From: a virus
Strand: one strand, 5' to 3'
IMG/VR virus record: IMGVR_UViG_3300021519_000782
Location: 1-35,365 of that record
Length of the DNA stretch: 35,365 nt
In this document: positions 3,560 through 34,905 of the stretch, piece by piece
How the letters are laid out: every line of letters begins with the position of its first letter
How positions within the stretch are numbered: position 1 is the stretch's first letter
Position numbers and translations under genes: made by a program
Notes under the pieces: generated by a model
The model's database searches: none
What the model was told of the DNA's origin: nothing
Seen by the model: the letters and a program-made list of their open reading frames with translations, nothing else

Positions 3560-4239
3560 CGAGCAAAGTCCTGTTGTAGCTTAATGTTATCAAAGAATTC
3601 TTTCTTTGTACCAGCATCAGTGTCAAACCCACCCTTGAGTACGGTAGTCTGTGTCAATGAACTATGTGCCATAATACCTCTGTTCTCACAGCAGCCATGT
3701 TGGGCCTGGATATAAACAGCAACGTCTTCTGATCCAGTAGCCTTTTGAATCTCACGAGCAATATCATTACAAAGCTCTTCCTGGAGAGTTCCTCTACGGG
3801 CACACCACTGGGCAATGCGTGTATACTTACTGAGTCCAATCAGCTTCTTAGCAGCAATAATACCAATATAAGCAACGCCAGTAACAGGCTGATGATGATG
3901 GCTGCACATGGACTTTAATTCACTGCGAACAACCAACATTCCAGTGTAAGCATCTTTGCCATCATTGGGAAAGCTTGTGGCATCAGGCGCTGGATTATAA
4001 CGTCCACTCATTACTTCATTGAAGTACATCTTGGCTAGACGCTGTGCTGTGCCTTTACTATTTGGATCAGTTTCTCTGTCAATTACCAATGCATCCAATA
4101 CCTGTTCAAATGCACTGGTTGTTTCTTCAATCAACCTGTCATATTCATCAAAATGGATATACTCAGAGATATTGTCACCGGCCCAAAAACGAGCGCCGGC
4201 AGCTTTAATACGGTTACGAATAGTTTCTGAAACAGTCAT
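3556..4239 (-). CDS. folE: GTP cyclohydrolase I, FolE
   Basis: FolE opens GTP to dihydroneopterin triphosphate, the first committed step of both folate and 7-deazaguanine synthesis. Zinc ligands expected from the family are in place: Cys112 and His115 in MCSHHHQPVTG, and Cys183 in QHGCCENRG. The family phrases GLSKYTRI and WCARRGTLQEEL are also present. At 227 residues it is the normal length. The start has AAGGAA upstream and its own candidate promoter and leader hairpin. It is the first gene of the run that includes queD and queE, with queC absent in this window. In phage context the product most likely feeds DNA base modification. Confidence 0.93.
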   Translation of the reverse strand: MTVSETIRNRIKAAGARFWAGDNISEYIHFDEYDRLIEETTSAFEQVLDALVIDRETDPNSKGTAQRLAKMYFNEVMSGRYNPAPDATSFPNDGKDAYTGMLVVRSELKSMCSHHHQPVTGVAYIGIIAAKKLIGLSKYTRIAQWCARRGTLQEELCNDIAREIQKATGSEDVAVYIQAQHGCCENRGIMAHSSLTQTTVLKGGFDTDAGTKKEFFDNIKLQQDFAR

Positions 4240-11899: not shown

Positions 11900-13348
11900 T
11901 TATACAAACAATGAATTAAACTGTGTTGATGAATTGATGGTTTTCTTGCCAGTCCAACCATTACTACGTTGTCCCACAATTTCCAACCAATATCTACTGT
12001 GTTCTTCAATTAGATCCAAGCTACGCTGGTTGCCAGCATTGGCAATTACTTCGTCAATGATGTCTCGAGCCATGACGCCTGTTGTCTGATGTTTTAGCAT
12101 AAAGGGAGTCTTGCCCTTGGCGTACTCTTCATTGGCAGATAATACAGCATTGATATGCATCCAAACATTATGGCTCATTTGAACAGCATAACTTAGTGTA
12201 TCCCAGGAAGTTCTACCTTCCTTACCAATCAAGTTTAAGTCGCCGGGTGCATAGGTACAAACATCATTAATTGCAATATGCTTGCTCATATGACTGTCTT
12301 GAAACTTTTCAATAAGACCATCATCTCTAACTACATCACCATACAGTCTAGTATCAGTAGAATACTTCTTATCATCAGCGCCTGGGGTCATGGAATATGT
12401 CCACTTGCCGTTATTCTTTATACGCAATTGATCATACACAAGTCCCTTGGCATTAGCAAAGAACGGGCTTGAACAGTCAAAGCTTGCAGTAAAGTTTGCG
12501 TTATGATGTTTGCGTACAGCACGTTGAACATCTGTTAGTAGCACTGCCCACTCCAGCTTGCTGGTCCCTAGAAAATGCATCCAATCATGCAAACCTTCTT
12601 CAAGTACGCCGTCACGGATCATATGAACAAGCCTGCGTAATAGCAAGTGGATGTCACACATATTCTGACCACCCATAGCCCATCCATTAAAGTGTGTGCC
12701 GGGATAACGCTTGGGATCATTATAATCCTTCATGCGATTATACCAGTCGTCAGACTCAGCATGGTTCTCACCCTGAATAACATTAAGCAACTTGCAAGCG
12801 CCTGTGCGATGCTTCATCCAGTAGTCATTATTGATGCGTGTAGCCAGTGCTGCTTCTTCATATGACGTAATTCCAGTGGCATTTCTACCACGCTCAGTGT
12901 TAGCAACCCACGCAGGAACGTCAAGTACCATGCCATAATTCATATAAGCATCCATCCACTTGAGAACGATGTCACGCTTATGCTGTGCTTTGGGGCAGTT
13001 GGGATCTTTCCAGTCACCGTCCCATACACCCTTGCCAATTTGGAAGCCGCCAGAGTCACCAAGTACAAAACTACGTGGATCACGGTTACGCACCATATTT
13101 TCTTTAGGTTCAGGACCCACTTCTAAGATGGCATGACCCGCAGAGTATAGGCACCAAGGATAATAGAAGTATCCCTTGTCAGGATCTAGAAAATCAAGTC
13201 CGTCAATCCCATTATGAAAGCTGGGCGGAACTCTACCACCCTTACCTTTTTGGTATTTTCCAATTTGAAAGCTATAGAAACTACTCAGTGCTGGTAAGAA
13301 CACTGCGTAGTCTTTTTGCCTTGCTGCCATATTATCCTGCGGTATCAT
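11900..13348 (-). CDS. dpdA: DpdA-like DNA 7-deazaguanine transglycosylase (TGT superfamily)
   Basis: DpdA enzymes exchange guanine in DNA for a 7-deazaguanine. In this 482-residue protein the TGT-barrel motifs appear in order: VLGDSGGFQIGKG (96-108, the DSGGFQ substrate-base site), NVIQGEN (189-195, equivalent of G-x-V-Q-G), WAMGGQN (223-229, the GG motif), and TASFDCSSP with Asp291 in the position of the catalytic nucleophile (FDC in tRNA TGT). The tRNA-TGT zinc CxCxxC signature is not seen. Together with folE, queD and queE this is the strongest sign of DNA modification. The start has AAGGGA upstream. Subfamily (DpdA1/2/3) cannot be assigned without alignment. QueC, needed for preQ0, is not in this window. 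Confidence 0.85.
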   Translation of the reverse strand: MIPQDNMAARQKDYAVFLPALSSFYSFQIGKYQKGKGGRVPPSFHNGIDGLDFLDPDKGYFYYPWCLYSAGHAILEVGPEPKENMVRNRDPRSFVLGDSGGFQIGKGVWDGDWKDPNCPKAQHKRDIVLKWMDAYMNYGMVLDVPAWVANTERGRNATGITSYEEAALATRINNDYWMKHRTGACKLLNVIQGENHAESDDWYNRMKDYNDPKRYPGTHFNGWAMGGQNMCDIHLLLRRLVHMIRDGVLEEGLHDWMHFLGTSKLEWAVLLTDVQRAVRKHHNANFTASFDCSSPFFANAKGLVYDQLRIKNNGKWTYSMTPGADDKKYSTDTRLYGDVVRDDGLIEKFQDSHMSKHIAINDVCTYAPGDLNLIGKEGRTSWDTLSYAVQMSHNVWMHINAVLSANEEYAKGKTPFMLKHQTTGVMARDIIDEVIANAGNQRSLDLIEEHSRYWLEIVGQRSNGWTGKKTINSSTQFNSLFV

Positions 13349-18839: not shown

Positions 18840-19196
18840 TTAGATCTTGGCTGGTTGACCTTCTCTTGACTTCTTATAGTTTATAGCATAAGCGTCTGGA
18901 GTGCAAGAAAATTTTGCAACAAAATCCCTATGCAGTTTAGCAGGTTCAATTCTAAACTTTTCACATATGTGTTTCATTAGAATATCAATGTGGTCATAAT
19001 CAATTTTTGGAACATGTCTTAGGTTATGCTCAAGTTGATCCACTGCACTCTTGTCAATGTCCTTCACATTGCTTTCTATAGCTTTATCATAACGGAAACG
19101 AGCACCCATTAATCCGCGAGCACCTGCACTAATGGGATGTTTGGCTTGTAAGCCAATGCTCATTGCCGCTTCTGATAAAATTTCATGTAAACGCAT
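18840..19196 (-). CDS. probable head-interior protein with capsid-targeting-like N-terminus
   Basis: The 118-residue protein begins MRLHEILSEAAMS, matching the short leader (MR/MK-x-x-[DE]-h-L-x-E) shared by five proteins in this region. In T4 a leader of this type targets internal proteins to the prohead core and is cut after (L/I)-x-E by the gp21 protease; here the cut would follow Glu9. The rest has a Gly/Ala/Arg-rich segment (GARGLMGARFRYD) and a helical domain (DYDHIDILMKHICEKF, then HRDFVAKFSC). The start overlaps the previous stop (TAATG). The role inside the head is unknown. Confidence 0.68.
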   Translation of the reverse strand: MRLHEILSEAAMSIGLQAKHPISAGARGLMGARFRYDKAIESNVKDIDKSAVDQLEHNLRHVPKIDYDHIDILMKHICEKFRIEPAKLHRDFVAKFSCTPDAYAINYKKSREGQPAKI

Positions 19197-19576
19197 TATG
19201 CTTTTCCGTTTGTTTTTAGCTTAGGTGGTCCATTATTACTTATATTAAAGCCCCACTTAGCTGCTTGCTTTTTATCTTCGCCTGTATTAACATCAACTGA
19301 CAAGGCATTGGACCAACGAGGATCATTTGCTTCCTTGGCATTAGTAGGAATATGTCCACTTGCTTCTTCAATGCTTTCATCTTTAACGCAGTTATTAACT
19401 CTTGTGCCGCCCTTCATCTTAGTACCAGCTTTGTGATAGCCAGTCCAGCACTTTGGATCCAATCGTTGTTTAGCCTCATCCATATCTTTTGGCTTCTTTC
19501 CTGCTTTCTTCTTAGCAATAGCTATTGCTGCTTGTTGAGCTGGATTTGCTGCTTCTAAGATATCCTTAACTTTCAT
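19196..19576 (-). CDS. probable head-interior protein with KCWxGYH motif
   Basis: The 126-residue protein begins MKVKDILEAANPAQQ, with the leader-type peptide and a possible (L/I)-x-E cut after Glu8. It continues with AAIAIAKKKAGKKPKD, then DPKCWTGYHKAGTKMKGGTRVNNCVKDES, a motif I recall repeated in marine T4-like phage structural proteins (Cys-Trp-x-Gly-Tyr ... Asn-Cys). The C-terminal tail is basic and unstructured. It shares one base-pair-level overlap with its neighbours on both sides, so it is translated with the 49-residue basic protein and the following leader-bearing gene. DNA contact inside the head is an inference from the basic composition. Confidence 0.7.
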   Translation of the reverse strand: MKVKDILEAANPAQQAAIAIAKKKAGKKPKDMDEAKQRLDPKCWTGYHKAGTKMKGGTRVNNCVKDESIEEASGHIPTNAKEANDPRWSNALSVDVNTGEDKKQAAKWGFNISNNGPPKLKTNGKA

Positions 19577-19722
19577 GGCGCGCCTTGTCCTCTATATTTC
19601 TTAAAACTACGCTTGGTATGCTTATTCATGGAGCTATACTTGATATTACCAATGCCTTGGCTAGTCTTCTTATTATTCTTGATTCTTTCAACTTTAACTT
19701 CTTTGATTGCTTTGCTTGCCAT
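19573..19722 (-). CDS. 49-residue very basic conserved phage protein
   Basis: A short frame from ATG 19722 with a strong AAGGAG site seven bases upstream, ending at a TGA that overlaps the next start (ATGA). The product begins MASKAIKEVKVERIKNNKK, then TSQGIGNIKYSSMNKHTKRS and FKKYRGQGAP. About a third of residues are Lys or Arg. A 'RIKNNKKTS ... KSFKKYRGQG' mini-protein is familiar to me from T4-like cyanophages, function unknown. It is likely to bind nucleic acid or act in head assembly given its neighbours. Confidence 0.8.
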   Translation of the reverse strand: MASKAIKEVKVERIKNNKKTSQGIGNIKYSSMNKHTKRSFKKYRGQGAP

Positions 19723-19733
19723 TGTTGAACTCC

Positions 19734-22313
19734 TTAAGCTGCTGCTAGTCTAGTTTGAATATATTTTACTGCCTTTTGTTTTTCTGCAGGTGGTAGTTTC
19801 TGTATCTGAGCTAATACTGCGTTATATTGAGCACTAATTGCGGGAACACCACTTGGAGTAGTTCCTGCCGTGCCTGGTTTACCAGTAGCTGTTCCTGCTG
19901 ATGCTGTACCTGGAGTAGCTGCTGGCTTCTTTGCCTTACCAACTGGGATCTTTGCTGCTTTAAATGCAGTTCTAAGTACATTCTCATCAATTCCCTGTGT
20001 CTTAAGGAATTCGAATACTGCTTTACTGTCAGTTGGGCTACCAGCTTTTTTCCAAGCACCCATTAGCTTGTCAGCTGTGACCTTATTAGTTAGATTACCT
20101 GCACCAGTTGCAATTTTTTGTCCGGCAGCGGCAGCACCTTTAATCGCGGCTTGCCCAAGTTTACTACTAGCGGCAGCACTAGCACCTTTCATAGCAGCGC
20201 CTGCTACAGCACCACCTGCACTTTTAAACTTATCCCAAATTGGTCCTTCTTCAAGTTTTTGAAACAGACGCTTTACCTGTGCTTCAGTTAATAATGTTGG
20301 AGCAAACGCAGTACCACGGAAAGCTTCCATTACTTGTGACTCAGTTAATGCTGGTCTGTCAAAGTTAATGGATTCTCCTTTGGGCAATTTAGATAGATAT
20401 TGCTGTATTGCTTTGATCTTCCATTCTGGATTTTTAGTTAGTTTTGGATCAGCTTCCATTGCATCGCTATAGATATTCTTAAGTAGACTATCTGCTTTTG
20501 CTGTTAACATTGTTATGTTAGCAGGTTGGCTTTTTAGATCAGGATTCTGTCCAATAATTTCATTTCTGATGAACTTATCAAGATCTAATTCAGTCTTGAT
20601 TGCACCAGACCCAATCTTATCAAACAACTTATTGGTTGTATCATTGACAATCCCAGATAATCTAGGACTGGATTCAATATAACTATCCTGAGCCTTTGCC
20701 ATAAGTTGATAAACAAGTTCTTTCTTTTGACCAGCTGTCATCTGCAACTCAGCCTCAGCAGGATACAATGTATCTACTTGCTTCATTAGATCTTTTTGTA
20801 TATTTTGTAGTACTTCGCTACCAAGTTTTCCTGGTCCAACCTTATTAAATTTATCGTTTATATCTTTCGTTAAGTAATCAAGTACTCTCTTTACCTTGGG
20901 ATCTTGATTGGCGGCATCAAGCATGTCAGTGCCCGTAGTATTGGATATTGAAGCAGATGCAGGAGCTTTTGCTGGACCAGCTGCATCCATAGCTCCTTGT
21001 AGTTTAGCTCCTTGTTTAGCAATCGAAGGATCGTTATTGTTAACCCATTTACCATTAACTTTTGATTGTCCAATATGGTCAATATCATCATCACCGGTAG
21101 GTTCAAATCCTGCTTTTGATGCTGGTGATTGCCCGGCGGCAGTAGCCGCACCAGTGGGTTGAGCAGCCGCAGCGGCACCACCTGTTGCTTTCTTAGCTAA
21201 TGCATCAACAAAATCTTGATCTATGATACGTACTTTGGAACCATATCCTGCATCTCTAAGTTCAGCTTGCAATGCACTTTGAATATTGCTTATGCCACTT
21301 TGTGCTTGCATACTGTTATACCCAGCCTGTTGAGCTGCTGTCTTTAATGCAGCCTTAAAGTCTTCTGGAGTCTTAATTTCACCTGCGGCAATCATTTTCT
21401 TAATGACATTAACGCCCTTGCTAGTTGGGCTAGATCCAGTTACAGCATCAGCTGCATTACCTGCTCTGAGAGCATCTTTTGTGTCCTGTTGACCTGGAGT
21501 ATTACCTACATCGTTCTTAGCGTATCTAGCAGATTGTTGTGCTGGAGTTTCACCAGTGGAAAGTTTCCCACCGCCCTGTGGATCCGCACTACCACCGGTT
21601 CCAGGACCTCCTGCATCAGTAGCAGCACCTGCAACTGCGCCGCCCCCAATTGGTTTTGGTATTTCAGTTGGAATACCCCCGCCAAATAATGTTTTAACTC
21701 CGGCACCAATACTTTGTGCAATACTAGCAATGCTATATGTTTCTAATCCTGAAACAGCAGAAGATACAAAACCTTCACCTTGTAATAGCTTATCAGTGAA
21801 TTTCATCACACCAATGATTGCAGGTTTTAATACAAGAAATGCCGGCCCCATACCTACATACCCTGCAACACCAACAGCTAATACTAGAGTTGCATATACT
21901 GCTTTTTGAACTCCTGGATGTTCTTTGGCAAAATCTCTATACTTCTGTATATAACGCATTACACCAGCATCTCCGCCGGTTTTTTCTTTTAATTCAGCAG
22001 CAACTTTATCGTAACCAGATTCAAAACCTTTAACAAGTCCTGTATCCAATGTTACTTTTTTCGCATAATCATAGATTGCTTTAATTTTTTTAGCAACATC
22101 AACTCCCTTGCCGGCAATCGTTCTATTTCCGCCACCGGCATCCACCTGCTGTTGTACTTGTGCAAACAATGCCTGAACTTGTTGAGCAGTAAGCTGTGCT
22201 TCCATTAATGAACGTGCAAGATCTTCTCCCATACGTACAGTTGGGTGATATGAGGGCAATACACTTTCAAAGAGTGGGTGAGTTGATTCCAGTAGTAAAT
22301 CATTAATACGCAT
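19734..22313 (-). CDS. large Ala/Gly-rich probable head-interior protein
   Basis: The 859-residue protein begins MRINDLLLESTHPLFES, with the shared leader and a possible (L/I)-x-E cut after Glu9. Landmarks: an N-terminal LTAQQVQALFAQVQQQ helix, a hydrophobic segment near 138-170 (AVYATLVLAVGVAGYVG), a long low-complexity Ala/Gly/Pro region (225-300 and 375-460), helical segments, and a C-terminal third with two LTE-[SA]-QV phrases (near 665 and 682), a second Ala-rich hydrophobic part and a KLPPAEKQKAVKYIQT end. Several internal L-x-E sites could be further protease sites. No enzyme motif is visible. The layout suggests a core or ejection-type protein able to interact with membranes. The start overlaps the upstream stop (TAATG). 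Confidence 0.68.
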   Translation of the reverse strand: MRINDLLLESTHPLFESVLPSYHPTVRMGEDLARSLMEAQLTAQQVQALFAQVQQQVDAGGGNRTIAGKGVDVAKKIKAIYDYAKKVTLDTGLVKGFESGYDKVAAELKEKTGGDAGVMRYIQKYRDFAKEHPGVQKAVYATLVLAVGVAGYVGMGPAFLVLKPAIIGVMKFTDKLLQGEGFVSSAVSGLETYSIASIAQSIGAGVKTLFGGGIPTEIPKPIGGGAVAGAATDAGGPGTGGSADPQGGGKLSTGETPAQQSARYAKNDVGNTPGQQDTKDALRAGNAADAVTGSSPTSKGVNVIKKMIAAGEIKTPEDFKAALKTAAQQAGYNSMQAQSGISNIQSALQAELRDAGYGSKVRIIDQDFVDALAKKATGGAAAAAQPTGAATAAGQSPASKAGFEPTGDDDIDHIGQSKVNGKWVNNNDPSIAKQGAKLQGAMDAAGPAKAPASASISNTTGTDMLDAANQDPKVKRVLDYLTKDINDKFNKVGPGKLGSEVLQNIQKDLMKQVDTLYPAEAELQMTAGQKKELVYQLMAKAQDSYIESSPRLSGIVNDTTNKLFDKIGSGAIKTELDLDKFIRNEIIGQNPDLKSQPANITMLTAKADSLLKNIYSDAMEADPKLTKNPEWKIKAIQQYLSKLPKGESINFDRPALTESQVMEAFRGTAFAPTLLTEAQVKRLFQKLEEGPIWDKFKSAGGAVAGAAMKGASAAASSKLGQAAIKGAAAAGQKIATGAGNLTNKVTADKLMGAWKKAGSPTDSKAVFEFLKTQGIDENVLRTAFKAAKIPVGKAKKPAATPGTASAGTATGKPGTAGTTPSGVPAISAQYNAVLAQIQKLPPAEKQKAVKYIQTRLAAA

Positions 22314-24205
22314 TAGGCATCTCCAACCATTTTTTTGCCTGGAGTCTTTTTGTCCTTGCCCTTCCAGTAGCCTGTAAACTTTGGACCAGTTTCTTTGCTT
22401 TCGCCTTGAGCCTTAACAAAGCTAACAAAAGCATCTTTTGATGTCATAAGATTCTTGATTGTTTCATGCTTTTCAACTGGACGCATAGCATCAATTTTAG
22501 CCAATGCTGTTCTTGCAATTGAAGGCTTAATTGCTAATGTGCTGCCATCTTGAAATGTCAACGGCTTACCGGTAGCTGTATCAAGATTAGACTTGAGCTG
22601 TAGTAATATGTTTGATTTATCAGTTGTATCTCCACGTGGTGCAACATAACCGCCTAAACCAGTTTCTGGATTATATTTGTTAGCTTTGTATACTGTAGCA
22701 GCTCGATCAGGATCGTGCCCGAATCTAGATGCTGCTTGTGCTCTTGTAGTTGGCGTAGAAACACTGGGATTAAAACCAGCTTCACCAAGTCCTTGCTTTA
22801 ATTGTAGAATGGAATGAACTAACTTCCCACGCATCTCAGCTTGTGTATGTCCCGGAGCCCAACCGCCCTCTGCCCAGTTAGCAATCGTTGCTGCATCACC
22901 AGGTGAAAGATTCGAAAATTCCTGTGTTAGATCTTGTGCGTTATACTGTCCATAACGACTCCAAATAGCCTTTGCTTCTGGATTTTTTAATGCTGCGTCT
23001 GCATCTGCACGACTGACCATCATGCCTTCGCCAATCTTCTTCTTACGCTTCTGCATACCAATACCACCACTGGCAAACCCAGTACCGTTACCCATGCTGG
23101 TAGCAATGCCTCCGGCGCCACTTGCGCCACTTGACATCTCAGCAATTATTCTCATGCCCTTGTGGTCTTTACAATGACTAAAGCCCGTGTGATGTGGAGC
23201 CTTTAATCCACCACCGCTAAATCCTTTACCACACTGTGAGCAATGAACAACCTTATCATCCTTGCCTTCACCAATTACAACAAATCCTTCTTTCTGCTTG
23301 CCCATGATATCAGTGGACTTGACCATTAGTGGAGTACCCAGTGGCTTCTTATCTGGACCCAACTTAGCCATCTTAACCATACCATCAGCAGTTATACCGG
23401 GAGTTGACCCGCCTGATGAAGGAGTTGCACTTGATTGCCCGGCTGCTGGTGGAGTAGCAGGAGCTCCAGGAGCTCTTTGCTGTTGCTGCCCCTGTACCGG
23501 TGGCTGCCCAGGCACTTGACCCGGTGCTTGTTGCCCTGTGCCACCAAATGCTGGATCATTTGGATCCTGCCCTGGCTTAAATGCAGTAATAGTAGCTTCA
23601 CCGACACCCTTATTATGATTATAACCCTGCTCATCGCCTGGAAATCTCATTTCGTATGATAGATACTGCCATACTGTTTCAATATAATCAGATGCCTTGG
23701 TAATTTTTGCCTGTACCCAGCCCTCAAGTCCCTGACGCTCATCTAAATTCTGTAATAGTTCATGTAACATAATTGCATGTTTGGCAGCACGATAAAGATC
23801 GCTTCTTGCCATTTGCACCTCATGATCAGGCTCCTGTGTATAGTCACTGGGATCAACGTGCCCACCACTTTCCTTCTTAATCTTACCACCCTTGGCAAGA
23901 AATTGTTTCATTAAGCGTTCTGATTCTTCTCTGTCATCTGCTTTTGGGCGCTCACCAGGCTGTCTATATGCCTTTGGGCGACCAGTGTCCATTGCAGTTC
24001 TTGACTGTGAATCTTTCCATTTACTCTGGGTTCTCTTAAGGCTTCTAATGCCTTCATTTATGTGCTCCAAAGCATCTTGAAGTTTAGCTGCCATTAATAC
24101 AGCATTATCTCTTTTTGATTCAGCAATGGTAGCTGTGTTAAGTTGGTGAATACGCTGTTCAATAGCATAACGCTGCTTAAGAAGTATAACGAGTTTATCG
24201 CTCAT
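22313..24205 (-). CDS. multi-domain structural-type protein with zinc-finger-like motif
   Basis: The 630-residue protein has a coiled-coil-like N-terminus (1-65), a helical module at about 131-186 (ARSDLYRAAKHAIMLHELLQ, then GWVQAKITKASDYIETV) that I recall as a recurrent domain in marine T4-like phages, a Pro/Gln/Gly-rich linker (210-270) and a Cys/His cluster near 322-348 (HCSQCGKGF, then HHTGFSHCKDH) that could bind zinc. A further helical region (about 390-470) and a basic C-terminal tail (KFTGYWKGKDKKTPGKK) follow. It lacks the leader peptide of its neighbours. A scaffold or head/neck component is plausible from context only. Confidence 0.65.
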   Translation of the reverse strand: MSDKLVILLKQRYAIEQRIHQLNTATIAESKRDNAVLMAAKLQDALEHINEGIRSLKRTQSKWKDSQSRTAMDTGRPKAYRQPGERPKADDREESERLMKQFLAKGGKIKKESGGHVDPSDYTQEPDHEVQMARSDLYRAAKHAIMLHELLQNLDERQGLEGWVQAKITKASDYIETVWQYLSYEMRFPGDEQGYNHNKGVGEATITAFKPGQDPNDPAFGGTGQQAPGQVPGQPPVQGQQQQRAPGAPATPPAAGQSSATPSSGGSTPGITADGMVKMAKLGPDKKPLGTPLMVKSTDIMGKQKEGFVVIGEGKDDKVVHCSQCGKGFSGGGLKAPHHTGFSHCKDHKGMRIIAEMSSGASGAGGIATSMGNGTGFASGGIGMQKRKKKIGEGMMVSRADADAALKNPEAKAIWSRYGQYNAQDLTQEFSNLSPGDAATIANWAEGGWAPGHTQAEMRGKLVHSILQLKQGLGEAGFNPSVSTPTTRAQAASRFGHDPDRAATVYKANKYNPETGLGGYVAPRGDTTDKSNILLQLKSNLDTATGKPLTFQDGSTLAIKPSIARTALAKIDAMRPVEKHETIKNLMTSKDAFVSFVKAQGESKETGPKFTGYWKGKDKKTPGKKMVGDA

Positions 24206-24229
24206 CTGAATAATCCTATTTGATAATAT

Positions 24230-24520
24230 TTAGTTGATTCTGAAAGAAAGGTCTGTACTATTAAGTTTGAAAAATTGCTGTTCATTGATGTTGACATCAT
24301 CAAATACAACTTGTGCAATGGGATGCAAGTTTTCAATACTTAGTATATGGATTCCTGGATTTAAATTGAGAACAATGGACTCTTCAATTCGATAATCCTT
24401 ATGTCTTAGCCTGGGAAATACTCGCTCGGCAAGAAGGAAGTTATCTATATATAAACGATATCTTCCATCTTTTCCATATACATACCGTGTCTTAATTTTA
24501 ATAGTACAAACAACTTCCAT
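24230..24520 (-). CDS. small carbohydrate-binding-like beta protein
   Basis: The 96-residue all-beta protein shows the order YRLYIDNFLLAER, then IVLNLNPGIHILSIEN and VVFDDVNIN. This matches the pattern of small calcium-type carbohydrate-binding modules ('xxhYVDGxxV ... hxLxPGxHxLxhxF ... hDxVxVNG'). A larger protein at 28913-29371 has the same plan, so the two look like distant paralogues. No signal peptide. In virions such modules often decorate capsids or fibres; this is inferred. Confidence 0.6.
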   Translation of the reverse strand: MEVVCTIKIKTRYVYGKDGRYRLYIDNFLLAERVFPRLRHKDYRIEESIVLNLNPGIHILSIENLHPIAQVVFDDVNINEQQFFKLNSTDLSFRIN

Positions 24521-24524
24521 CTCA

Positions 24525-24806
24525 TTACTTATGAGTATTGAAAATGCCTTCTATTTGTTTGGCCAGTACATGCCCGCGATGACGCACATCCTTCTTATTA
24601 CTGACCTTCATCTTTTCAGCTTTTGCTAACAGCTGACGTAGCTCAGGTCTAGTAAGTTTTTTATGTGGGGGTAAATCTAGGTATGTTGCCGCTTGTTGTT
24701 TGAGCTGGCTAGTTTTTATATCGTTTTCAACAATGTTATGGAAGTTCTCACACAGTTCAAGTATTGTATCCCAATCGTGTGTATAGGAAAACTCTTGGTA
24801 GTGCAT
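24525..24806 (-). CDS. hypothetical helical protein
   Basis: The start ATG 24806 (MHYQEFSYTHDWDTIL) was chosen because AGGAG lies six bases upstream and the gene then begins 10 bases after the stop of the large multi-domain gene; the longer in-frame extension would overlap that gene by almost 100 bases. The 93-residue product has an acidic helical N-terminus and a basic C-terminal half (KKLTRPELRQLLAKAEKMK, then KKDVRHRGHVLAKQI). I do not recognise the family. Confidence 0.68.
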   Translation of the reverse strand: MHYQEFSYTHDWDTILELCENFHNIVENDIKTSQLKQQAATYLDLPPHKKLTRPELRQLLAKAEKMKVSNKKDVRHRGHVLAKQIEGIFNTHK

Positions 24807-24816
24807 GACAAACTCC

Positions 24817-27729
24817 TCATTTTGAAACTCCGGACTTAGCAATACTCCCAAGTATTTTTGCAACATGGTCAAATGCTGAGTCATCGTATTTGATTCCAAT
24901 ACCACCGGCTGCACGCCATTTGTTTACATTAACACCATAGTCATCCACTAATATATTGGCAACACCGTTGCCAAGAGCATGATCCGCTTTACTATGAGTT
25001 AACACTATTTCGGCAGGGGGCATATCAGATAAATGTTTCTTGATCCAAGCAATTTTGCCTGGTTTACTACGCTCATCACCAGCAAGTGGTGTTGAACAGA
25101 TTCTATATTCACCATACTTTTCAATTACTGTCTTAACCAATGCCCGTGCATGAGGTAGCATGGGCAAGTCAATCCAAAATGTTGGATGTTCTCTTACTAG
25201 CTGTAATGTTTCTTCGGTATTATTGATATCTTTGTAATGTTTAACACCAGCCAATCTTGACCACTCACTAAAGAAGTCAGCCAGCACCCCATCCATATCC
25301 AAATAGACACGTGGCTTTATTAATTCGTCTTCGTTTGTATTTTCCCCACTATCAAATTCTTCAAGTAAGTGTCCGCCTTCCATGATTGCCAATTCCATTG
25401 GCGACCAGCTTTCACTTGTTTGCGATTCTGCTATCCAAGCAGGCCCAGTATAGCCATTGGGAAATTGAGCAAAGTGCTGGATGGTACGATGCCAGCCTTC
25501 CTGAAGTTCATATCCATCAGGATGCTTAATAAGAATAACTGGCTCTTTGCGGACACCACCTTGCTGTTGAGCAAGTGTTGCTTGTGTAGCATGACGTTCA
25601 GCATCTCTTGCTACAACGTCCTTGACAGCACCGCCTGCTCTATTCTTTAGTTCGCCTTGTGTCCATGGTTCAAACATATCCATAGTAAATTTTAAGTTAG
25701 GAACAAGAGTCCATTTACTATTAGGCGTTAATCCAACACTCTTTAATAATTCACTAAGATGACTTTTTATGTCAGCGCCATTACCAAAATCAACTTTGTT
25801 ATTATTGTAGATCCAATCTCTTACTACATACTCAGGCCAAGTTGGTAATACTTGCTTTAAATAGTGAATTAACGCACCTCTAAGTTCCAGCAGTGGTGCC
25901 TTAATAACACTTTCCTCAGATACATTTTTTGGATCAACTAATCTAGCAGGGATTGATTTCATGCCAGCCATTCTATATGCTTTAAAACGATGATGACCAT
26001 CTAGAACTTGAAATCTGTCGATGCCATGTCTGCGTACAAGTATAGGAGGTAATTCTTTACCTGCTTTAATTGCTTTAACTATGTTAGCAAGATTCTTTGC
26101 GTGTGATGGTTCGTCGAATTTAGAATCAGGTTCAAATCCACTTAGTTTATTAATTGGAATCATAATGGTCTTCTCAGGTTTACCACTATCATTTACCCAC
26201 GCACCAAAGTTATTTGGATCTGAACTTAACTTAACTTTAGCAACTTCACTGACACTTTCCTGTGCTACTCTTTTGAATGTATACCCTTTGTCACCATTGA
26301 CAAATCCAGAATCAATTAACTTATATTCTGGGAGATAACGACCAATATTCTTTGCGATCATATCATATAACTTGATACGTCCTGCGTCTGAAGATTTGCC
26401 ACTGAAACTTATATAAGGTGGTTTACGTTTAGCAACAAACTGCTTGACAATAGAACCTACAGTGGCAAATACACGGAAAGCATCACCTTTACCTGTCATA
26501 CCAATTGTGGGATTTTCTTTGTCAGTGGCATCAAAGAACCCAATGTCAGCAACGCCGTTTCCTGTATCAACTTGTATAAAAACTTGAATGGTTGTGCCAC
26601 TATCAGTCTGGAACATGGATTTTTGAGTAGTTGCTGTACTCACTGGGCTAATGAAACGATATGGTTGATCAGCAACTTCGTTTGTTACTTCCTCATTTGC
26701 TCGCTTCTTACCACGACGCATGTTAAGCTGCCAACGTGCCAATTGTCCTTTACGACCTTTGGCATGACTGGCTTTCTCTAATTGTGATATTGTGGCTTTC
26801 TTTGGGATGCCGTGTCTTTGGCTGTCGCCAGGACGCCCAGGTCCCTTTCCATCTGCAAAGTTTTCACCAAACTTTTTTTTTGGATCTGCTGTCTCGTTTT
26901 CAGCCTTTGCAAGTCTAGTATAATAGTCCAGCTTTTCACCAAGATGATCCATTGCAATCTCAGTTGCAACTTCAATATCATTAGTGTGTTCGAACTCCAC
27001 CTTAACCCCTCTTGCCAATTGACGATGTACAGTATCAGACGTAGTCATAAATTTCTTAGCAAGTTCTTTTACGTTGGGTGTATGCTTGTTGAGTTGTTCA
27101 CTCTCCCCCACGCTCTCACCTAATCCCAACGATTTACGCAATGTTGGATAAAGTTGATGTTGAACAAGTTCAGCTAACTTTGGATTAATCTTGGGACCTA
27201 ATATGCTACGAACAAATGCTTCTGGATCACCATCTGTTACATTCTTGCGAGCATTAGTAGCACTTGCTAAACGTGGGCTAATGGCAAAGTCTAATGGATT
27301 AAAGATAAAGCCTTTGCCTGCTTTTACTGCATCTGGATTTGCTTGACCATGTGCATTACTACTCTTAATCATTTCTCCGTAACTGGACATATCATCTTCA
27401 CCAGCAACAAATGTTGCAGCACGATAGCCTTTCTTATAGAGCCAAGTAGCAGCAACTAGTGGGGTCTTGATGCTGGGATCAATAATGAGATGACCTTTAG
27501 TTTCAGGAAATAATGTCTGTATCCACCAAACTTTCTGCTCATATGTAAGTGGATTCTTCTTATCACCAGTCTTGGCACTGACAAACAAGAACCAATCACA
27601 GTTTTGTTTTTGTGCTGCTTTCTGCAATGTTTGAATTAAAGCGTGATGACCAAAATGCGGAGGATTCAAGCGTCCAAATGTAAAGACTGCTTTTTTAACT
27701 TCTGCTTCTTCAAGTTCATCTAAACGCAT
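24817..27729 (-). CDS. giant multi-enzyme protein: nucleotidylyltransferase, ParB-like, HAD nucleotidase
   Basis: This 970-residue protein (ATG 27729; a TTG four codons upstream is less likely) starts MRLDELEEAE, the leader shared with other probable head-interior proteins. Domains: nucleotidylyltransferase, about 10-195 (FGRLNPPHFGHH with HxGH at 25-28, and SATNARK near 157); a DUF5661-like helical piece (VKVEFEHTNDIEVATEIAMDHL, 240-270); a basic segment (GRKGQLARWQLNMRRGKKR); an alpha/beta domain (380-485); a ParB/Srx-like domain (500-605, PILVRRHGIDRFQVLDGHHR); a second ParB-like piece (ELQEGWHRT); and a C-terminal HAD 5'(3')-nucleotidase (806-966, DMDGVLADFF). (L/I)-x-E sites fall near module borders. 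It may be packaged and cut by the prohead protease. Substrates are unknown. Confidence 0.82.
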   Translation of the reverse strand: MRLDELEEAEVKKAVFTFGRLNPPHFGHHALIQTLQKAAQKQNCDWFLFVSAKTGDKKNPLTYEQKVWWIQTLFPETKGHLIIDPSIKTPLVAATWLYKKGYRAATFVAGEDDMSSYGEMIKSSNAHGQANPDAVKAGKGFIFNPLDFAISPRLASATNARKNVTDGDPEAFVRSILGPKINPKLAELVQHQLYPTLRKSLGLGESVGESEQLNKHTPNVKELAKKFMTTSDTVHRQLARGVKVEFEHTNDIEVATEIAMDHLGEKLDYYTRLAKAENETADPKKKFGENFADGKGPGRPGDSQRHGIPKKATISQLEKASHAKGRKGQLARWQLNMRRGKKRANEEVTNEVADQPYRFISPVSTATTQKSMFQTDSGTTIQVFIQVDTGNGVADIGFFDATDKENPTIGMTGKGDAFRVFATVGSIVKQFVAKRKPPYISFSGKSSDAGRIKLYDMIAKNIGRYLPEYKLIDSGFVNGDKGYTFKRVAQESVSEVAKVKLSSDPNNFGAWVNDSGKPEKTIMIPINKLSGFEPDSKFDEPSHAKNLANIVKAIKAGKELPPILVRRHGIDRFQVLDGHHRFKAYRMAGMKSIPARLVDPKNVSEESVIKAPLLELRGALIHYLKQVLPTWPEYVVRDWIYNNNKVDFGNGADIKSHLSELLKSVGLTPNSKWTLVPNLKFTMDMFEPWTQGELKNRAGGAVKDVVARDAERHATQATLAQQQGGVRKEPVILIKHPDGYELQEGWHRTIQHFAQFPNGYTGPAWIAESQTSESWSPMELAIMEGGHLLEEFDSGENTNEDELIKPRVYLDMDGVLADFFSEWSRLAGVKHYKDINNTEETLQLVREHPTFWIDLPMLPHARALVKTVIEKYGEYRICSTPLAGDERSKPGKIAWIKKHLSDMPPAEIVLTHSKADHALGNGVANILVDDYGVNVNKWRAAGGIGIKYDDSAFDHVAKILGSIAKSGVSK

Positions 27730-27750
27730 TTGTAAGCCCAACTGATAGTA

Positions 27751-27758
27751 TATTTATT
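27751..27758 (-). promoter_or_regulatory. T4-type late promoter motif
   Basis: AATAAATA followed by TACT on the minus strand, 7 of 8 to TATAAATA. A start near 27744 gives a 15-base leader for the multi-enzyme gene. GCCAA (27770-27774) and TTGGGC (27736-27741) flank it and could pair in read-through RNA (CCAA/TTGG plus one G-C past a bulge), covering the GGG that is the only ribosome-site-like element; this pairing is weak. Confidence 0.4.
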
Positions 27759-28896
27759 AGTGTTCAAAATTGGCGGCGCTAAACTTTTCTCTGTTAACTA
27801 CCTTGGTTGGATTTTCTTTACCATGCACCATATAGCCTTCCTGTCCAGCTTCACCATTAATATGAGCTTGCATCTGTGCAGGATGTGCATCAAGTAATCC
27901 CACAATGTGATCCTTTACACGCATGATACCAATAAATGCTTGGCATAATACCTTATACCCGCCTTTATTTTCTTCAATATACTTCTGTATATTTTGTAAT
28001 TTTTGAGGGCTTGATTTCTTACTTGCTAAAAATCCTGTTATGAAGTCACTGCCAAAATTTTCAAAATTACGTTGCTTAACTCTGTAGTTGCCATATGACT
28101 GCAATAGTGAAGGGAGATCTTTGATCTTCAATGCAGTTAATGTTCCTTCATCCAGGAATTTATCCATTACAGCAGCGTTTGCAGTTATAAAGCTTTCAAT
28201 TGATTTTAGATCAGGTGGTATTTTAACACGGGGCGGTGTTGTAAACTGATCAGTGATCATTAACAATGGACCCCTGTTATTGGCCGCTGATGGCAACTTG
28301 CTAATATGACGTCCGGGAGGAGCCGCAATTTTACCATCTGGGCCAGCAGCAGGTGCAGTACCGAAGAATGTATGAACACAGATTGCACTTGTGCTTTTTG
28401 CAATAGCTTGTCCAAGATCACTGTTAGTGGGAACTGTGTAAACTACTGTATTGGGCTTAAAAACAAATTGGTTATTCTCAGCGGGAGGTGTTTGGCTATA
28501 CATTAGATCACCAAACAAATAACCTTTAAAACTGTTGGATAAGCTTGCTTCAAACTGTGGCCAAAGCAAAGCAATCATACCAGCTAGTTCTTCTCTGCCA
28601 CCGCCCTTGCGTTGAGCGTATACTTCAGCAATTTCTTCAGGACTGCGTGGGAGAATTCCTTTGGCAAACATATGCTTGTCACACATAGTAAACCCACGCT
28701 CGTCTCTACCCCAAACAATAGCAGGCTTGCCATCTGGCTTGACACTGATTGTTTCAGGATTAGTAGACATTTGCTTTATTGTTGCAATGGCTTTTTTAGC
28801 ACCTGCAGATCCCTCAGTAAAAACTCGATCTTCAGGATGAGGTACTCTAGCCTTTGTTGGGTCGTACTCTTCTAATAGGAATTCATTTGCTCGCAT
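27757..28896 (-). CDS. ligase/nucleotidyltransferase-like protein with capsid-targeting-like leader
   Basis: The 379-residue protein from ATG 28896 begins MRANEFLLEEYDP, the shared leader with possible cleavage after Glu9. SVKPDGKPAIVWGR (51-64) looks like motif I (K-x-D-G) of covalent nucleotidyltransferases (DNA/RNA ligases), GYLFGDLMYS (125-134) like motif III, and GQEGYMVHGKENPTKVVN near 351-368 like motifs IV and V (EGhhh ... hK). If so, Lys53 would be the adenylated residue. I associate it with a phage family annotated as a DUF (possibly DUF6267), which I cannot verify. Similarity is at motif level only; spacing is compatible with a small RNA-ligase-type core. A 29-codon extension upstream enters the neighbouring gene and was rejected. 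Confidence 0.6.
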   Translation of the reverse strand: MRANEFLLEEYDPTKARVPHPEDRVFTEGSAGAKKAIATIKQMSTNPETISVKPDGKPAIVWGRDERGFTMCDKHMFAKGILPRSPEEIAEVYAQRKGGGREELAGMIALLWPQFEASLSNSFKGYLFGDLMYSQTPPAENNQFVFKPNTVVYTVPTNSDLGQAIAKSTSAICVHTFFGTAPAAGPDGKIAAPPGRHISKLPSAANNRGPLLMITDQFTTPPRVKIPPDLKSIESFITANAAVMDKFLDEGTLTALKIKDLPSLLQSYGNYRVKQRNFENFGSDFITGFLASKKSSPQKLQNIQKYIEENKGGYKVLCQAFIGIMRVKDHIVGLLDAHPAQMQAHINGEAGQEGYMVHGKENPTKVVNREKFSAANFEH

Positions 28897-28900
28897 TGTA

Positions 28901-28908
28901 TATTTATT
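28901..28908 (-). promoter_or_regulatory. late-promoter-like motif very close to an ATG
   Basis: AATAAATA followed by TACA on the minus strand, but only four bases before the ATG at 28896. A transcript from it would start at or inside the start codon, so it either gives a leaderless message or is not a promoter. No Shine-Dalgarno is seen for this gene. Confidence 0.28.
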
Positions 28909-31128: not shown

Positions 31129-31847
31129 TTTGACTTCTCCATGAGTTTTACAATTTTTTTAATTTTACCAGGTGCAATCATATGCAACAAGAGTATATCA
31201 TCTGTATTCTTTGCAAAGAAGTTGAATCCATCATATACTCCAATAATTCTACCATAGTTGTCCCTTGCTGGATCCTTAGTATTGAACCTACCCACCACTT
31301 CCTTATACCAATTTCTAAACTCAAAGTCATCCTTGTTTACGGCTAGGTAACGTGTTATATCTTCCTTAATGGGGTCATTCCAATCAAAGTTACCAAGAAA
31401 TACTTGATAACGATATTCTGGTAATTGTTTAACAAACTTGATATCAGTAATTGACTCCAAAGAAGTCTGATTCTGTCGCTCTGAAACGTACTTGTCGTTA
31501 GTATACTCAATCATAGCAATAGCACTTGAGTATTCTTCTTTGGACAACACCAAATCAATAAAAGCCGAATCACTTGAATATATATTACACCAGGATTCAC
31601 GGCGACGTCTAAATGTAATATTGTTCATCTCACATTCGCGCAGTATTTTCATCCAACGGTGATCACTACCGTAACGACCACGAGGATCATCTTGGCTGGA
31701 AAAGTTAAATTCAAACTTCCATTCAAACTTCTGCTTATACCAAGTTTGGTCAACACATTTTATTCGCCACTGTGGCAAACCCAATGCTTCAAACTTCTGT
31801 ATGTACTGATTCTTGCTGCTCAACTGATAGCTCCACTTCATCGCCAC
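31125..31847 (-). CDS. hypothetical protein overlapping the clpA 3' end
   Basis: The 240-residue protein starts at GTG 31847 (AAGG nine bases before) or ATG 31841, inside the last codons of clpA, an overlap of more than 50 bases. It contains EWKFEFNFSSQDD, DHRWMKILRECEMNNITFRRRRESWCNIYSS, YRYQVFLGNFDWNDPIKEDI and a C-terminal YDGFNFFAKNTDDILLLHMI. The YxVFLGNF...W phrase is one I weakly recall from T4-like cyanophage hypothetical proteins. No enzymatic motif. It may be translationally coupled to ClpA. Confidence 0.7.
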   Translation of the reverse strand: MAMKWSYQLSSKNQYIQKFEALGLPQWRIKCVDQTWYKQKFEWKFEFNFSSQDDPRGRYGSDHRWMKILRECEMNNITFRRRRESWCNIYSSDSAFIDLVLSKEEYSSAIAMIEYTNDKYVSERQNQTSLESITDIKFVKQLPEYRYQVFLGNFDWNDPIKEDITRYLAVNKDDFEFRNWYKEVVGRFNTKDPARDNYGRIIGVYDGFNFFAKNTDDILLLHMIAPGKIKKIVKLMEKSN

Positions 31848-34035
31848 TGGCGCTAACCTTAATTATAGCACCGTTCAGCAGATTGTCAAACAGTATTTTC
31901 CTAGCCAGCGGTACTTTGATTTTTTCGTGTATCAGTCTTGCCATTGGGCGAGCACCCATAGCAGCGTCATATCCATTGTCAATGAGATATTCCCAAGCAG
32001 TATCATCCAATAGTATCTGCATATCCTTATCAAGCAATTGTGTCTGCATTTCTGCGACGAACTTGCCTGCAACCTTCTTGATGGTTTCCTTATTCAGCTT
32101 GTTAAACTTAATAACAGCATCCAAGCGGTTTCTAAATTCAGGACGGAAGAATTCCTTAACAGCTTTGTCATCCTCGCCTGTTTTAGTAAGTGAGCCAAAA
32201 CCAATACTATTGCGCTCGCTGTCAGCAGCACCTAGATTACTTGTAAGTAAAATGATTGCCTGGCGGCAGTCTGCTCTTTTGCCGTTAGAGCCCGTTACAA
32301 ACCCCTCGTCCATAATCTGTAGTAGAATTTGGACCACTTCCGGATGTGCTTTTTCTATCTCATCAAACAAGATAACGGCATGAGGATTCTTAGAAACCTC
32401 ACTTATAAGCAGACCACCAGCCAAGTTAGCATCCTCATAGCCAACGTAGCCGGGAGGTGCACCGATCAAACGGCTAATACTATGCCGCTCACCGTATTCA
32501 CTCATATCAAAGCGGATAAGCTTCATGCTTAAACGATCACTTAGTGACTTTGCAAGTTCGGTCTTACCTGTTCCAGTTGGTCCAAGTAGGAGGAAGGCGC
32601 CAACTGGACGGTCATTACTCTTTAGACCAGCACGGTTAACCCATACACGGTCAAGTATTTGATCAACAGCAGTGTCCTGTCCATAAACACGCAGCTTGAT
32701 ATCCTGCTCCACAGTGTGGACGTCAATGCTATTCTTTACTTCTTCCATTTGGCTAATGGGGATGCCAGTCATACGACTAATCTCACGTTGAATCTGCGCA
32801 ACATCAATAATACGATGTTCTGCATCAGTACTACGCTTCAATGCCGCAGCACTGTCAATCAAATCAATTGCCTTATCAGGAAGCTTCTTGTCATTTTGAA
32901 AGCGAACACTTAGTTTTACTGCCGCTTCAATTGCCTCATCTGTAATTTCCACATTGTGGAAGCCTTCGTAACTATCGCGAATACCTTGCAGAATCTGAAT
33001 GGCAATTGCAGGACTTGGTTCATCAACAGTAAGTCTATTGAATCGACGCATCAGCGCACGATCCTTCTCAAAATTCTGTGTATACTCTTCCCAAGTGGTA
33101 CTGGCAATTACCTTGATCTCACCACGTGCCAATGCTGGCTTAATCATATTGGCTAGATCAACAGAACTATTACCACCACCACCTGCACCACGCATCTGAT
33201 GTGCTTCGTCAATGAAGAGAATAATGTTCTTCATTTCAGTAGCAGCAGCCAGGATTTCCTGCAACCTTTCTTCAAACTCACCACGATACTTTGTGCCAGC
33301 AAGCAACTGTCCAATATTGAGACTGTATACCTTCCAACCTCTGAGGAAAGCGGGCACCTTCTCTTCAATGATATCCAGTACTAGACCTTCTGCAATAGCA
33401 GTTTTACCAACGCCAGCGTCACCAACCAATAGGACATTGCTTTTATTCTTTCTAGCTAAAATTTGTGAGAGTTCAGCCAACTCCTTGTCGCGTCCAATAA
33501 CAGGATCAATTTTGCCTTCACCGGCAAGTGTCATCATATTTGTGCAATACTGTTCCAGGATTTTTTCAGACTGGCTCTTAGATGAACGTGTATTCTTCTT
33601 ACGCTTTGTCCATGCTTTCACAGTTGGCTCTTTCTCAACACCATACTTGGTTAGGAAGAATGCTGCATGACTATGAGTTTCATTAGTGATGCTTAGATAT
33701 AGATCAATTAAGTTAAGCTGTTGGCGACCACTAAAAATCACTTGTGTATTGGCACGATTAAACACACGTTCCAAACTTACTGTTTTCTTTGGATCTTCTG
33801 CATCTTCATCAGTATTGATGACATCAATATTTTCAAGATATGTTTCCACTTCCTGAATAAGTCCGGGAACTTCAACTCCCATCTCATCCAGTAACTGATG
33901 GAAGCTTCTTTCATGTAGAAGGCTGAGAAGCAAATGTTCAACCATGAAATATTCATGGTTCAATTCCCTCGCATATTCGCGACCGGTTCTGATAATTTTT
34001 AAGATGTCACCATCTGAACTATAGATCTGTTTCAT
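31789..34035 (-). CDS. clpA: ATP-dependent protease unfoldase ClpA
   Basis: ClpA feeds substrates to the ClpP peptidase. The 748-residue protein (E. coli: 758) has an N-domain (HEYFMVEHLLLSLLHE), first AAA domain with Walker A GDAGVGKT (205-212), pore loop GTKYRGEFE (247-255) and Walker B ILFIDEAH (272-279), and second AAA domain with GPTGTGKT (485-492), pore loop GYVGY (529-533) and VILFDEIEKAH (554-564). The IGF loop that docks on ClpP is intact at 611-613 (NSIGFGS). No clpP gene is in the window, so it would use host ClpP. The gene has both a sigma70-like and a late promoter and no Shine-Dalgarno. Full-length ClpA is unusual in a phage. Confidence 0.95.
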   Translation of the reverse strand: MKQIYSSDGDILKIIRTGREYARELNHEYFMVEHLLLSLLHERSFHQLLDEMGVEVPGLIQEVETYLENIDVINTDEDAEDPKKTVSLERVFNRANTQVIFSGRQQLNLIDLYLSITNETHSHAAFFLTKYGVEKEPTVKAWTKRKKNTRSSKSQSEKILEQYCTNMMTLAGEGKIDPVIGRDKELAELSQILARKNKSNVLLVGDAGVGKTAIAEGLVLDIIEEKVPAFLRGWKVYSLNIGQLLAGTKYRGEFEERLQEILAAATEMKNIILFIDEAHQMRGAGGGGNSSVDLANMIKPALARGEIKVIASTTWEEYTQNFEKDRALMRRFNRLTVDEPSPAIAIQILQGIRDSYEGFHNVEITDEAIEAAVKLSVRFQNDKKLPDKAIDLIDSAAALKRSTDAEHRIIDVAQIQREISRMTGIPISQMEEVKNSIDVHTVEQDIKLRVYGQDTAVDQILDRVWVNRAGLKSNDRPVGAFLLLGPTGTGKTELAKSLSDRLSMKLIRFDMSEYGERHSISRLIGAPPGYVGYEDANLAGGLLISEVSKNPHAVILFDEIEKAHPEVVQILLQIMDEGFVTGSNGKRADCRQAIILLTSNLGAADSERNSIGFGSLTKTGEDDKAVKEFFRPEFRNRLDAVIKFNKLNKETIKKVAGKFVAEMQTQLLDKDMQILLDDTAWEYLIDNGYDAAMGARPMARLIHEKIKVPLARKILFDNLLNGAIIKVSASGDEVELSVEQQESVHTEV

Positions 34036-34041
34036 ATTACA

Positions 34042-34078
34042 AATATAGCATTTTTTAAAATAATGTCAAGTATTTATA
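34042..34078 (-). promoter_or_regulatory. dual promoter of clpA: sigma70-like and T4-late
   Basis: TTGACA (34064-34069), 16-base spacer, TGC-TATATT (34042-34050) leaves six bases to the ATG, so transcription would begin at the start codon. Just upstream TATAAATA (34071-34078), followed by CTTG, is a perfect T4 late consensus. The late motif overlaps the last codons of the dnaJ-like gene. Together these would permit expression both early and late. Confidence 0.68.
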
Positions 34079-34905
34079 GGTTTTATTTGTTGTATTTGTT
34101 GTACCAAACTTAATTGATCTTTTGTCAACGCAGACGGAATCATAACATTGATCCTAATAATAAATTTACCATAGGTCCTATTTTGCCTTATAAATCCTTC
34201 ATCAGTGATACCAAGCTGTGTACCTGATTGCGTGCCTGGTGGAATCATTAACTTAATACGTCTGCTACGAGGAGTATCAATTTCATATTCTACGCCTATA
34301 ATAGCTTGAAAACAATCAATGGTGATATCACTCAATACATGATCATCTAGCTTGTTAAATTTAGGATGAGGTTTTACTCTTATAACAACTTCCAATGTAC
34401 CTCTTGGAACCGTTAGTATTGCATTATCTCCACGTCCTGCCATTTGCAACACTGTTTGATCATTAATACCAGCTGGTAGATCCAGTGTGATTCTCTCATT
34501 GCCTTTTGTTAGATTAAATTCAATGGTCTTTTGGCAAACATCCAATGTCTCAAGGAAATCCATTTCCAATTGAATTCTTATATTACGATTACGTGGAGTC
34601 TGGGGGTGCCTAAAATTAAAACCAAACATCTGACTAAAATGATCATTGATGTCGTTAAACATGTGATTTTCAAATCCAGGTGGGAACCCTTGATTAAACT
34701 GTGGTTGTGGATTTCTTAATTGGTGGTCATAATGAGCACGTTTATCAACATCGGCTAATGTTTCATATGCTTCACTAATTTGTTGGAATTTTGCTACATC
34801 GCCGCCTAAGTCAGGATGATGTTGCTTTGCAAGCTTTCTATAAGCTAATTTAACTTCTTCTGGAGTAGCAGTGTCTGCTACTCCCAATGTTGCATAATGT
34901 GTCAT
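34066..34905 (-). CDS. dnaJ: DnaJ/CbpA-like co-chaperone
   Basis: Hsp40 that would stimulate host DnaK. The 279-residue protein has an N-terminal J domain with the HPD motif (KQHHPDLGGD, His30-Asp32 region) and a YAxLGV start, a short linker with Gly/Phe/Asn-rich features (PQFNQGFPPGFENHMF), then the CTD beta-domains (ITLDLPAGINDQTVLQMAGRG, VVIRVKPHPKFNKLDDHVLSDITI, IKLMIPPGTQSGTQLGI). It lacks the CxxCxGxG zinc fingers, so it is of the CbpA (class II) type. Immediately upstream of clpA, it suggests a phage protein-quality or proteolysis module. No clear ribosome site is visible. Confidence 0.92.
   Translation of the reverse strand: MTHYATLGVADTATPEEVKLAYRKLAKQHHPDLGGDVAKFQQISEAYETLADVDKRAHYDHQLRNPQPQFNQGFPPGFENHMFNDINDHFSQMFGFNFRHPQTPRNRNIRIQLEMDFLETLDVCQKTIEFNLTKGNERITLDLPAGINDQTVLQMAGRGDNAILTVPRGTLEVVIRVKPHPKFNKLDDHVLSDITIDCFQAIIGVEYEIDTPRSRRIKLMIPPGTQSGTQLGITDEGFIRQNRTYGKFIIRINVMIPSALTKDQLSLVQQIQQIKPINT

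Follow-up and report, generated by a model that had tools for sequence, protein, structure and literature searches.

A shared N-terminal leader in one gene block

The window, the whole 35,365-nucleotide stretch analysed here, is a fragment of about 35 kb from a T4-like phage on which all called genes lie on the minus strand. Between 18.8 and 28.9 kb it contains a block of about ten genes, five of which begin with a tag of the form M[RK]xx[DE]phi..(phi)xE (Table 1). The N-termini read MRANEFLLE|E for p379 (ATG at 28896), MRLDELEE|A for p970 (ATG at 27729), MRINDLLLE|S for p859 (ATG at 22313), MKVKDILE|A for p126 (ATG at 19576) and MRLHEILSE|A for p118 (ATG at 19196), and all five end in (L/I)-x-E. 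An earlier note, made from the sequence alone, had reported five near-identical leaders that each fit (L/I)-x-E; both observations were confirmed, every leader lying where it had been placed on the minus strand. Longer upstream TTG starts of p379 and p970 were considered and dropped, as the ATG, the leader and the spacing of the late box are all common to the relatives.

Table 1. Features of the leader-bearing block, with positions in the window
Feature	Position	Strand	Basis
p379, DUF6267, ligase-like, leader-bearing	27757..28896	-	Pfam DUF6267, E 2e-36
p379 leader MRANEFLLE	28870..28896	-	MRA.[DE][FI]L.E kept in aligned close relatives
Late-promoter-like box AATAAATA, 4 nt upstream of p379 ATG	28901..28908	-	Box in 9/9 relatives checked
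p970, mosaic multi-enzyme, leader-bearing	24817..27729	-	Pfam/PHROG: cytidyltransferase-like, DUF5661, DUF6934, ParB_N, NT5C
p970 leader MRLDELEE	27706..27729	-	Sequence and orthologues
Late-promoter-like box AATAAATA, 21 nt upstream of p970 ATG	27751..27758	-	All relatives checked
p970 nucleotidyltransferase module (cytidyltransferase/NMNAT-like)	27040..27729	-	phrog_3041, E 7e-30
p970 ParB_N module	25885..26133	-	Pfam PF02195, E 6e-8
p970 PTWPEYV module	25360..25893	-	49-60% identity to standalone G016:59074, G017:143010
p970 internal LLE	25885..25893	-	Aligned to LIE closing the leader of standalone PTWPEYV genes
p970 NT5C, 5'(3')-deoxyribonucleotidase module	24859..25308	-	Pfam PF06941, E 5e-9; separate gene in phage Melnitz
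p630, block gene without leader, internal negative	22313..24205	-	Sequence and relatives
p859, Ala-rich, leader-bearing	19734..22313	-	No Pfam/PHROG match
p859 leader MRINDLLLE	22287..22313	-	Distant L035 homologue begins MKLQSILLE
p126, two small cargo modules fused	19196..19576	-	Two genes in relatives, each with its own leader
p126 leader MKVKDILE	19553..19576	-	Sequence and orthologues
p126 internal IEE preceding SGHIP module	19364..19372	-	Aligned to ITE/IIE/IYE closing standalone leaders
p118, small all-helical protein, leader-bearing	18840..19196	-	AF2 pLDDT 75; family 43-97% conserved
p118 leader MRLHEILSE	19170..19196	-	M1, E9, A10 invariant in 11 sequences

The leader is absent from the block members p630, p96 and p129 and is therefore not universal in the block; the adjoining p174 and p90 also lack it. 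A pattern specific to this window, composed after the genes had been inspected, fits 5 of the 38 called genes where 0.10 would be expected, a count reached in 0 of 2000 shufflings of the N-termini. The earlier note had asked whether the motif is as frequent on other genes of the same phage, and it is not, none of the 33 remaining called genes of the window fitting this pattern. A looser, T4-guided pattern gave 4 fits against 0.9 expected (25/2000 shuffles), and with a still looser one the enrichment in the window was not significant (137/2000 shuffles). The loosest form, M..phi-x-E, was too frequent to be of use, fitting 52 of 213 genes of the Methylophilales phage Melnitz. Since the statistics within the window are moderate, the case rests on comparative evidence.

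The leader-bearing proteins differ in kind. The AF2 model of p379 (pLDDT 83.5) has nearly all of its fold matches among RNA and DNA ligases, all of them weak, with a best Z of 7.0 over 188 residues and no Foldseek match at E 0.001, and K53-x-D55-G56, a KxDG adenylation motif, is invariant. The ligase-like identity proposed in the earlier note is thus a plausible but tentative prediction. Residues 1-11 and 13-16 of the model fall below a pLDDT of 50, and we count the disorder predicted for residues 1-16 in favour of a capsid-targeting tag. The p118 protein is predicted to be all-helical, p859 belongs to no family found by Pfam or PHROG searches, and our search found no sequence relative of known structure for the nucleotidyltransferase of p970. 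The untagged p630 adjoins tagged genes in relatives too and has a conserved C-terminal tail, YWKGKDK..PGKKMVG; it is possibly a core or scaffold partner.

Conservation and reuse of the tag

Every orthologue of the five genes that we examined, in about a dozen related IMG/VR contigs, retains the tag, and this retention is decisive support for a real signal. In 11 sequences of the p118 family, the Glu that precedes the predicted cut never changes while positions 2-8 vary. The tag also recurs on inserted block genes whose sequences are unrelated to the five in the window. One of these encodes sigma-70 region 4 (MRISEILEANYWKAD; L025:15784-16956) and is a possible head-packaged sigma factor module; another encodes a protein of 237 residues (MRFHEIVESFID; L038). 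A third encodes an amidoligase protein of 1630 residues (MKQHEILSEEEILNEV; L043:557-5449) with Amidoligase_2 matches in two stretches, in which the leader-like ILSE..ILNE reappears internally as SLGE..ILNE ahead of an apparent second copy. Furthermore, in two large related contigs, with 421 and 240 called genes, 8 and 3 genes fit the tag pattern, where 0.7 and 0.3 would be expected.

The tags of relatives bridge the form seen in the window and that of T4. Capsid-targeting sequences of the T4 type are N-terminal peptides of 10-19 residues. In IPIII the hydrophobic positions 4 and 7 do the targeting; residues 8 and 10 govern cutting, and the cut follows L/I-x-E (PMC9026906). The window tags have their hydrophobics at positions 3 and 6 (position 3 being Ala in p379) and run to 8-9 residues, 1-2 fewer than in T4, and homologues in relatives have the 10-residue T4 form. 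Nucleotidyltransferase homologues, for example, begin MKSFKQFVTEA or MKSFSQFLTET, compared with MKTYQEFIAEA in T4. Scanning with the nucleotidyltransferase domain of p970 returned 69 distinct loci, most of which begin like MKSFKQFVTEA, MKSFNAFLSEA or MKHFKEYLKEA immediately ahead of the domain. Of the 50 loci with a start near the domain, 34 fitted a generic tag pattern; 3 would be expected, and 500 shuffles never gave more than 8. Across T4-like marine phages this domain bears a nearly perfect T4 capsid-targeting sequence. In six annotated cyanophages the same protein starts MKSFSQFLTET, MKSFFQFLSEA, MKSFSKFFSEA, MKKFSAFLTEA, MRFRQFIIEA and MKLFNQFFKEA. PA5oct is not T4-like, and its homologue is untagged; the cytidyltransferase and DUF6267 proteins of P-HM1 (L053:15504-17266) also lack a tag, although most relatives are tagged. 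Melnitz, a Kyanoviridae isolate, carries the T4-like tags MQGFKTFLSEA, MKKFSEIIEAR, MKNFKNHIAEE and MTQKFSQFITEE, several T4-like tags of this phage being on syntenic genes.

Late promoters and the prohead protease

Boxes of the T4 late promoter type, [ACGT]ATAAATA, precede p379 and p970. The spacing ahead of p970 is exactly 21 nt in every relative checked; ahead of p379 it is 4 nt in most of the nine relatives checked and 7 nt in two. In the loci examined the box occurred 46 times in the sense and 5 times in the antisense orientation. These boxes fit synthesis of the two proteins alongside heads. The p379 box (28897-28908 region) ends 4 nt short of the ATG and no clear ribosome-binding site is seen there; the late mRNA may therefore have no untranslated leader.

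Searches of the 35 kb window did not find gp21, gp22 or gp23, and we therefore infer the presence of the protease in this phage from its relatives. Among 26 related contigs, mostly short fragments, Peptidase_S77, the gp21-type prohead protease, was found in 3, and for most of the contigs the gp21 and gp23 searches gave no match. The protease and gp23 occur together in three large related contigs, these being distant rather than closest relatives, and both are annotated in Melnitz. The gp23 proteins of these phages carry an L-x-E where one is expected, the sites reading FLSE|A, MLNE|A and YLKE|N.

Internal phi-x-E sites in fused proteins

The earlier note had described p970 as a giant multi-enzyme. 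Several enzyme domains are indeed present, but we prefer to read it as a polyprotein that contains protease-type sites of its own. Its modules are a nucleotidyltransferase, DUF5661, DUF6934, ParB_N, an unnamed PTWPEYV module and a nucleotidase, and its orthologues, of 858-1185 residues, keep both ends constant and shuffle the modules in the middle. Likewise p126, which had been taken for a small leader-bearing protein, does carry the leader but rather joins two cargo genes which relatives keep apart.

Comparison of fused and standalone copies places the similarity at or near phi-x-E. In two large related phages (G016, G017) the PTWPEYV module stands alone behind the leader MRASEFLIE, and the internal LLE|LRG of p970 aligns with the standalone MRASEFLIE|LRD; in p126 the internal IEE|ASGHIP aligns with MRVKEITE|ASGHIP. 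When a standalone module is fused, the preceding phi-x-E is usually retained and the targeting part is lost. At aligned junctions we find IEE, VEE, LTE, MDE, LLE, LTE, VTE, IPE, VEE and VTE, against a background frequency of phi-x-E of 2.3%, whereas no (L/I/V)-x-E is seen at most NT5C junctions or at two AANPAQQ junctions, which read TQE and YDE. The total number of phi-x-E in p970 is mildly raised (24 vs 15.8) and in the other window proteins not significantly so; as a sign of internal cutting this density is weak, and we set it aside. The simplest reading of these alignments is that the tag would be bipartite, each chain needing the targeting part once and each module needing a cutting part ahead of it, and it suggests that the prohead protease may also cut p970 and p126 into separate enzymes. 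Remnants of leaders after recent fusion could partly reflect descent.

Tagged proteins in published virion proteomes

Among the proteins that Table 3 of the S-CREM2 virion study (PMC10665884) lists, detected in purified particles by mass spectrometry, are the SAM hydrolase gp6, gp13, the kinase gp14, gp136 and the nucleotidyltransferase gp154, and all five fit the tag pattern derived from T4. The SAM hydrolase begins MKDFDSFLEE, the kinase MKRFDAFLTE, the nucleotidyltransferase MKNFSSFLTEA and the small proteins MKDLHSFLTE and MQTFSMFFSE. Among genes outside the structural-gene block, 4 of 7 tagged and 9 of 152 untagged products were listed as detected (Fisher p 8e-4), the tags being read from annotated starts, for some of which a gene caller picked different ones. 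Three further proteins listed in these virions, gp155, gp156 and gp160, are there though tagless. The authors of that table warn of carry-over, an explanation disfavoured by the tag that the virion-detected enzymes share. The homologue of the nucleotidyltransferase, as orthologous group T4-GC190, is reported from S-SM1 particles (Sullivan et al., 2010; PMC3037559) and an NMNAT-like protein from S-SCSM1 virions. We also observed that S-CREM2 gp12 (OR473000, L054, 7704-10313), which was detected in the virion and bears a Cas9-like annotation, shows a T4-like tag, RFASFMAEA, not at its annotated start but at about residues 18-26; that start may be wrong.

A probable diverged capsid-targeting sequence

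The near-T4 tags of relatives, the detection of tagged homologues in virions, the late promoters and the lack of the tag on the other 33 genes of the window argue that head loading of the tagged proteins, read here from sequence, is likely, and they lend support to the T4-like interpretation offered in the earlier note. We are fairly confident that the leaders are diverged T4-type capsid-targeting sequences, that the tagged enzymes are packaged and that the cargo fused into polyproteins is probably split at phi-x-E.

We propose the following model. The leader M[RK]xx[DE]phi..(phi)xE would act as a capsid-targeting sequence and be removed by the prohead protease; the mature enzymes would remain in the head and most likely reach the host along with the DNA. 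Delivery of cargo into the host is suggested here by analogy, following from T4 precedent only. In this lineage cargo genes appear to have been fused into the mosaic polyproteins p970 and p126, and as phi-x-E is usually retained at the junctions, the same protease would probably split the cargo modules. Modules may move between a standalone gene, with tag and phi-x-E, and a fused position with phi-x-E only. Whether this extends to aquatic T4-like phages in general, so that a single N-terminal code directs a varying assortment of enzymes into the head, made partly as polyproteins cut by the prohead protease and then injected, we judge to be evenly balanced.

Similar N-termini could arise by chance or from recent local copying of genes, and the sequence is indeed short and the looser patterns only weakly enriched within the window. 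Given that the bodies of the proteins are unrelated, that the tag persists in relatives that have diverged and also marks inserted genes without homology to the five, and that no shuffle in 2000 reached the count of the specific pattern, we consider this very improbable. The leader might instead be a docking peptide that binds a partner in an intracellular complex, for example one of replication or at the membrane, and carries no capsid signal. The genes adjoin those for DNA polymerase and clamp both here and in Melnitz, and a short amphipathic pattern could suit many partners. However, the polymerase and clamp are themselves untagged, the tags of relatives are nearly identical to the T4 capsid-targeting sequence, tagged homologues are found in virions and late promoters are present, which makes a docking role unlikely.

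Closer to our own reading, with somewhat less than an even chance, is that the proteins are packaged and lose the leader while the internal phi-x-E of p970 and p126 stay uncut, the whole protein being active, as may be the case for polyvalent proteins, and the tripeptides remnants of old leaders. Fused modules have 50-80% identity to standalone ones, so that a remnant could persist by descent, and the motif is lost at several junctions. Against this, M[RK]xx has gone yet phi-x-E stays in differing fusions of one module (VEE, LTE, MDE, IEE), the linkers of p970 carry ESVSE, YDLTE, ESISEA and GLGESVGE, and the amidoligase protein has an internal repeat of its leader-like segment.

Relation to known systems

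In T4 the internal proteins IPI-III and Alt carry a capsid-targeting sequence that gp21 cuts. As in those proteins, an N-terminal tag, 8-10 residues long and closed by L/I-x-E, stands before varied cargo, expression appears late and a gp21-type protease is present, here in relatives. Unlike theirs, the tag is diverged (M[RK]xx[DE]phi), its spacing and aromatic residues differing from those of IPIII, and the cargo is ligase-like, nucleotidyltransferase, ParB and nucleotidase rather than small basic proteins, and is fused into polyproteins with internal phi-x-E. In T4, Ip1-3 block type IV restriction enzymes (PMC12373910). The polyvalent proteins of invasive elements are large, multi-domain and include ParB-type domains, and are thought to be loaded into virions and to act early (Iyer et al., 2017; PMC5512222). 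The joining of cytidyltransferase-like, DUF5661, DUF6934, ParB_N and NT5C domains in the single chain of p970 resembles them. An embedded peptidase that releases parts is frequent, although not universal, among polyvalent proteins; Pfam and PHROGs give no peptidase domain in p970, and its T4-type tag and phi-x-E junctions instead suggest processing in trans by the phage prohead protease.

The cyanophage virion enzymes (NMNAT-like protein, kinase and SAM hydrolase of S-CREM2, S-SCSM1 and S-SZBM1) include a nucleotidyltransferase homologous to that of p970, which is tagged in the S-CREM2 and S-SZBM1 sequences. In contrast to our reading, the papers, in the sections available, report detection, name no packaging signal and leave carry-over open. 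Our literature search, thin on subscription journals, encountered nothing linking a capsid-targeting sequence to cyanophage-type cargo and no cargo polyprotein cut by a prohead protease. Capsid-targeted cargo of T4 and polyvalent proteins are already known; the diverged tag and the probable polyprotein cargo would be new. Enzymes of cyanophage particles, hitherto doubted as contamination, would become predictable, as a tag read from the genome would name the head-borne proteins. For aquatic phages of great abundance, the kit used in early takeover could then be listed from sequence alone, and the predicted kit includes nucleotidyltransferases, kinases, a SAM hydrolase and a sigma-factor module. 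Furthermore, the idea that the prohead protease processes polyproteins becomes directly testable.

Other genes in the window

Elsewhere in the window, GTP cyclohydrolase I is encoded at 3556-4239 (Pfam), and the genes at 696-1523 and 11900-13348 resemble, by eye, QueE and a TGT/DpdA-like enzyme. The three genes point to a possible 7-deazaguanine DNA modification. The region 31789-34905 encodes a full ClpA/ClpB-type AAA chaperone and, directly beside it, a protein that by eye is DnaJ-like.
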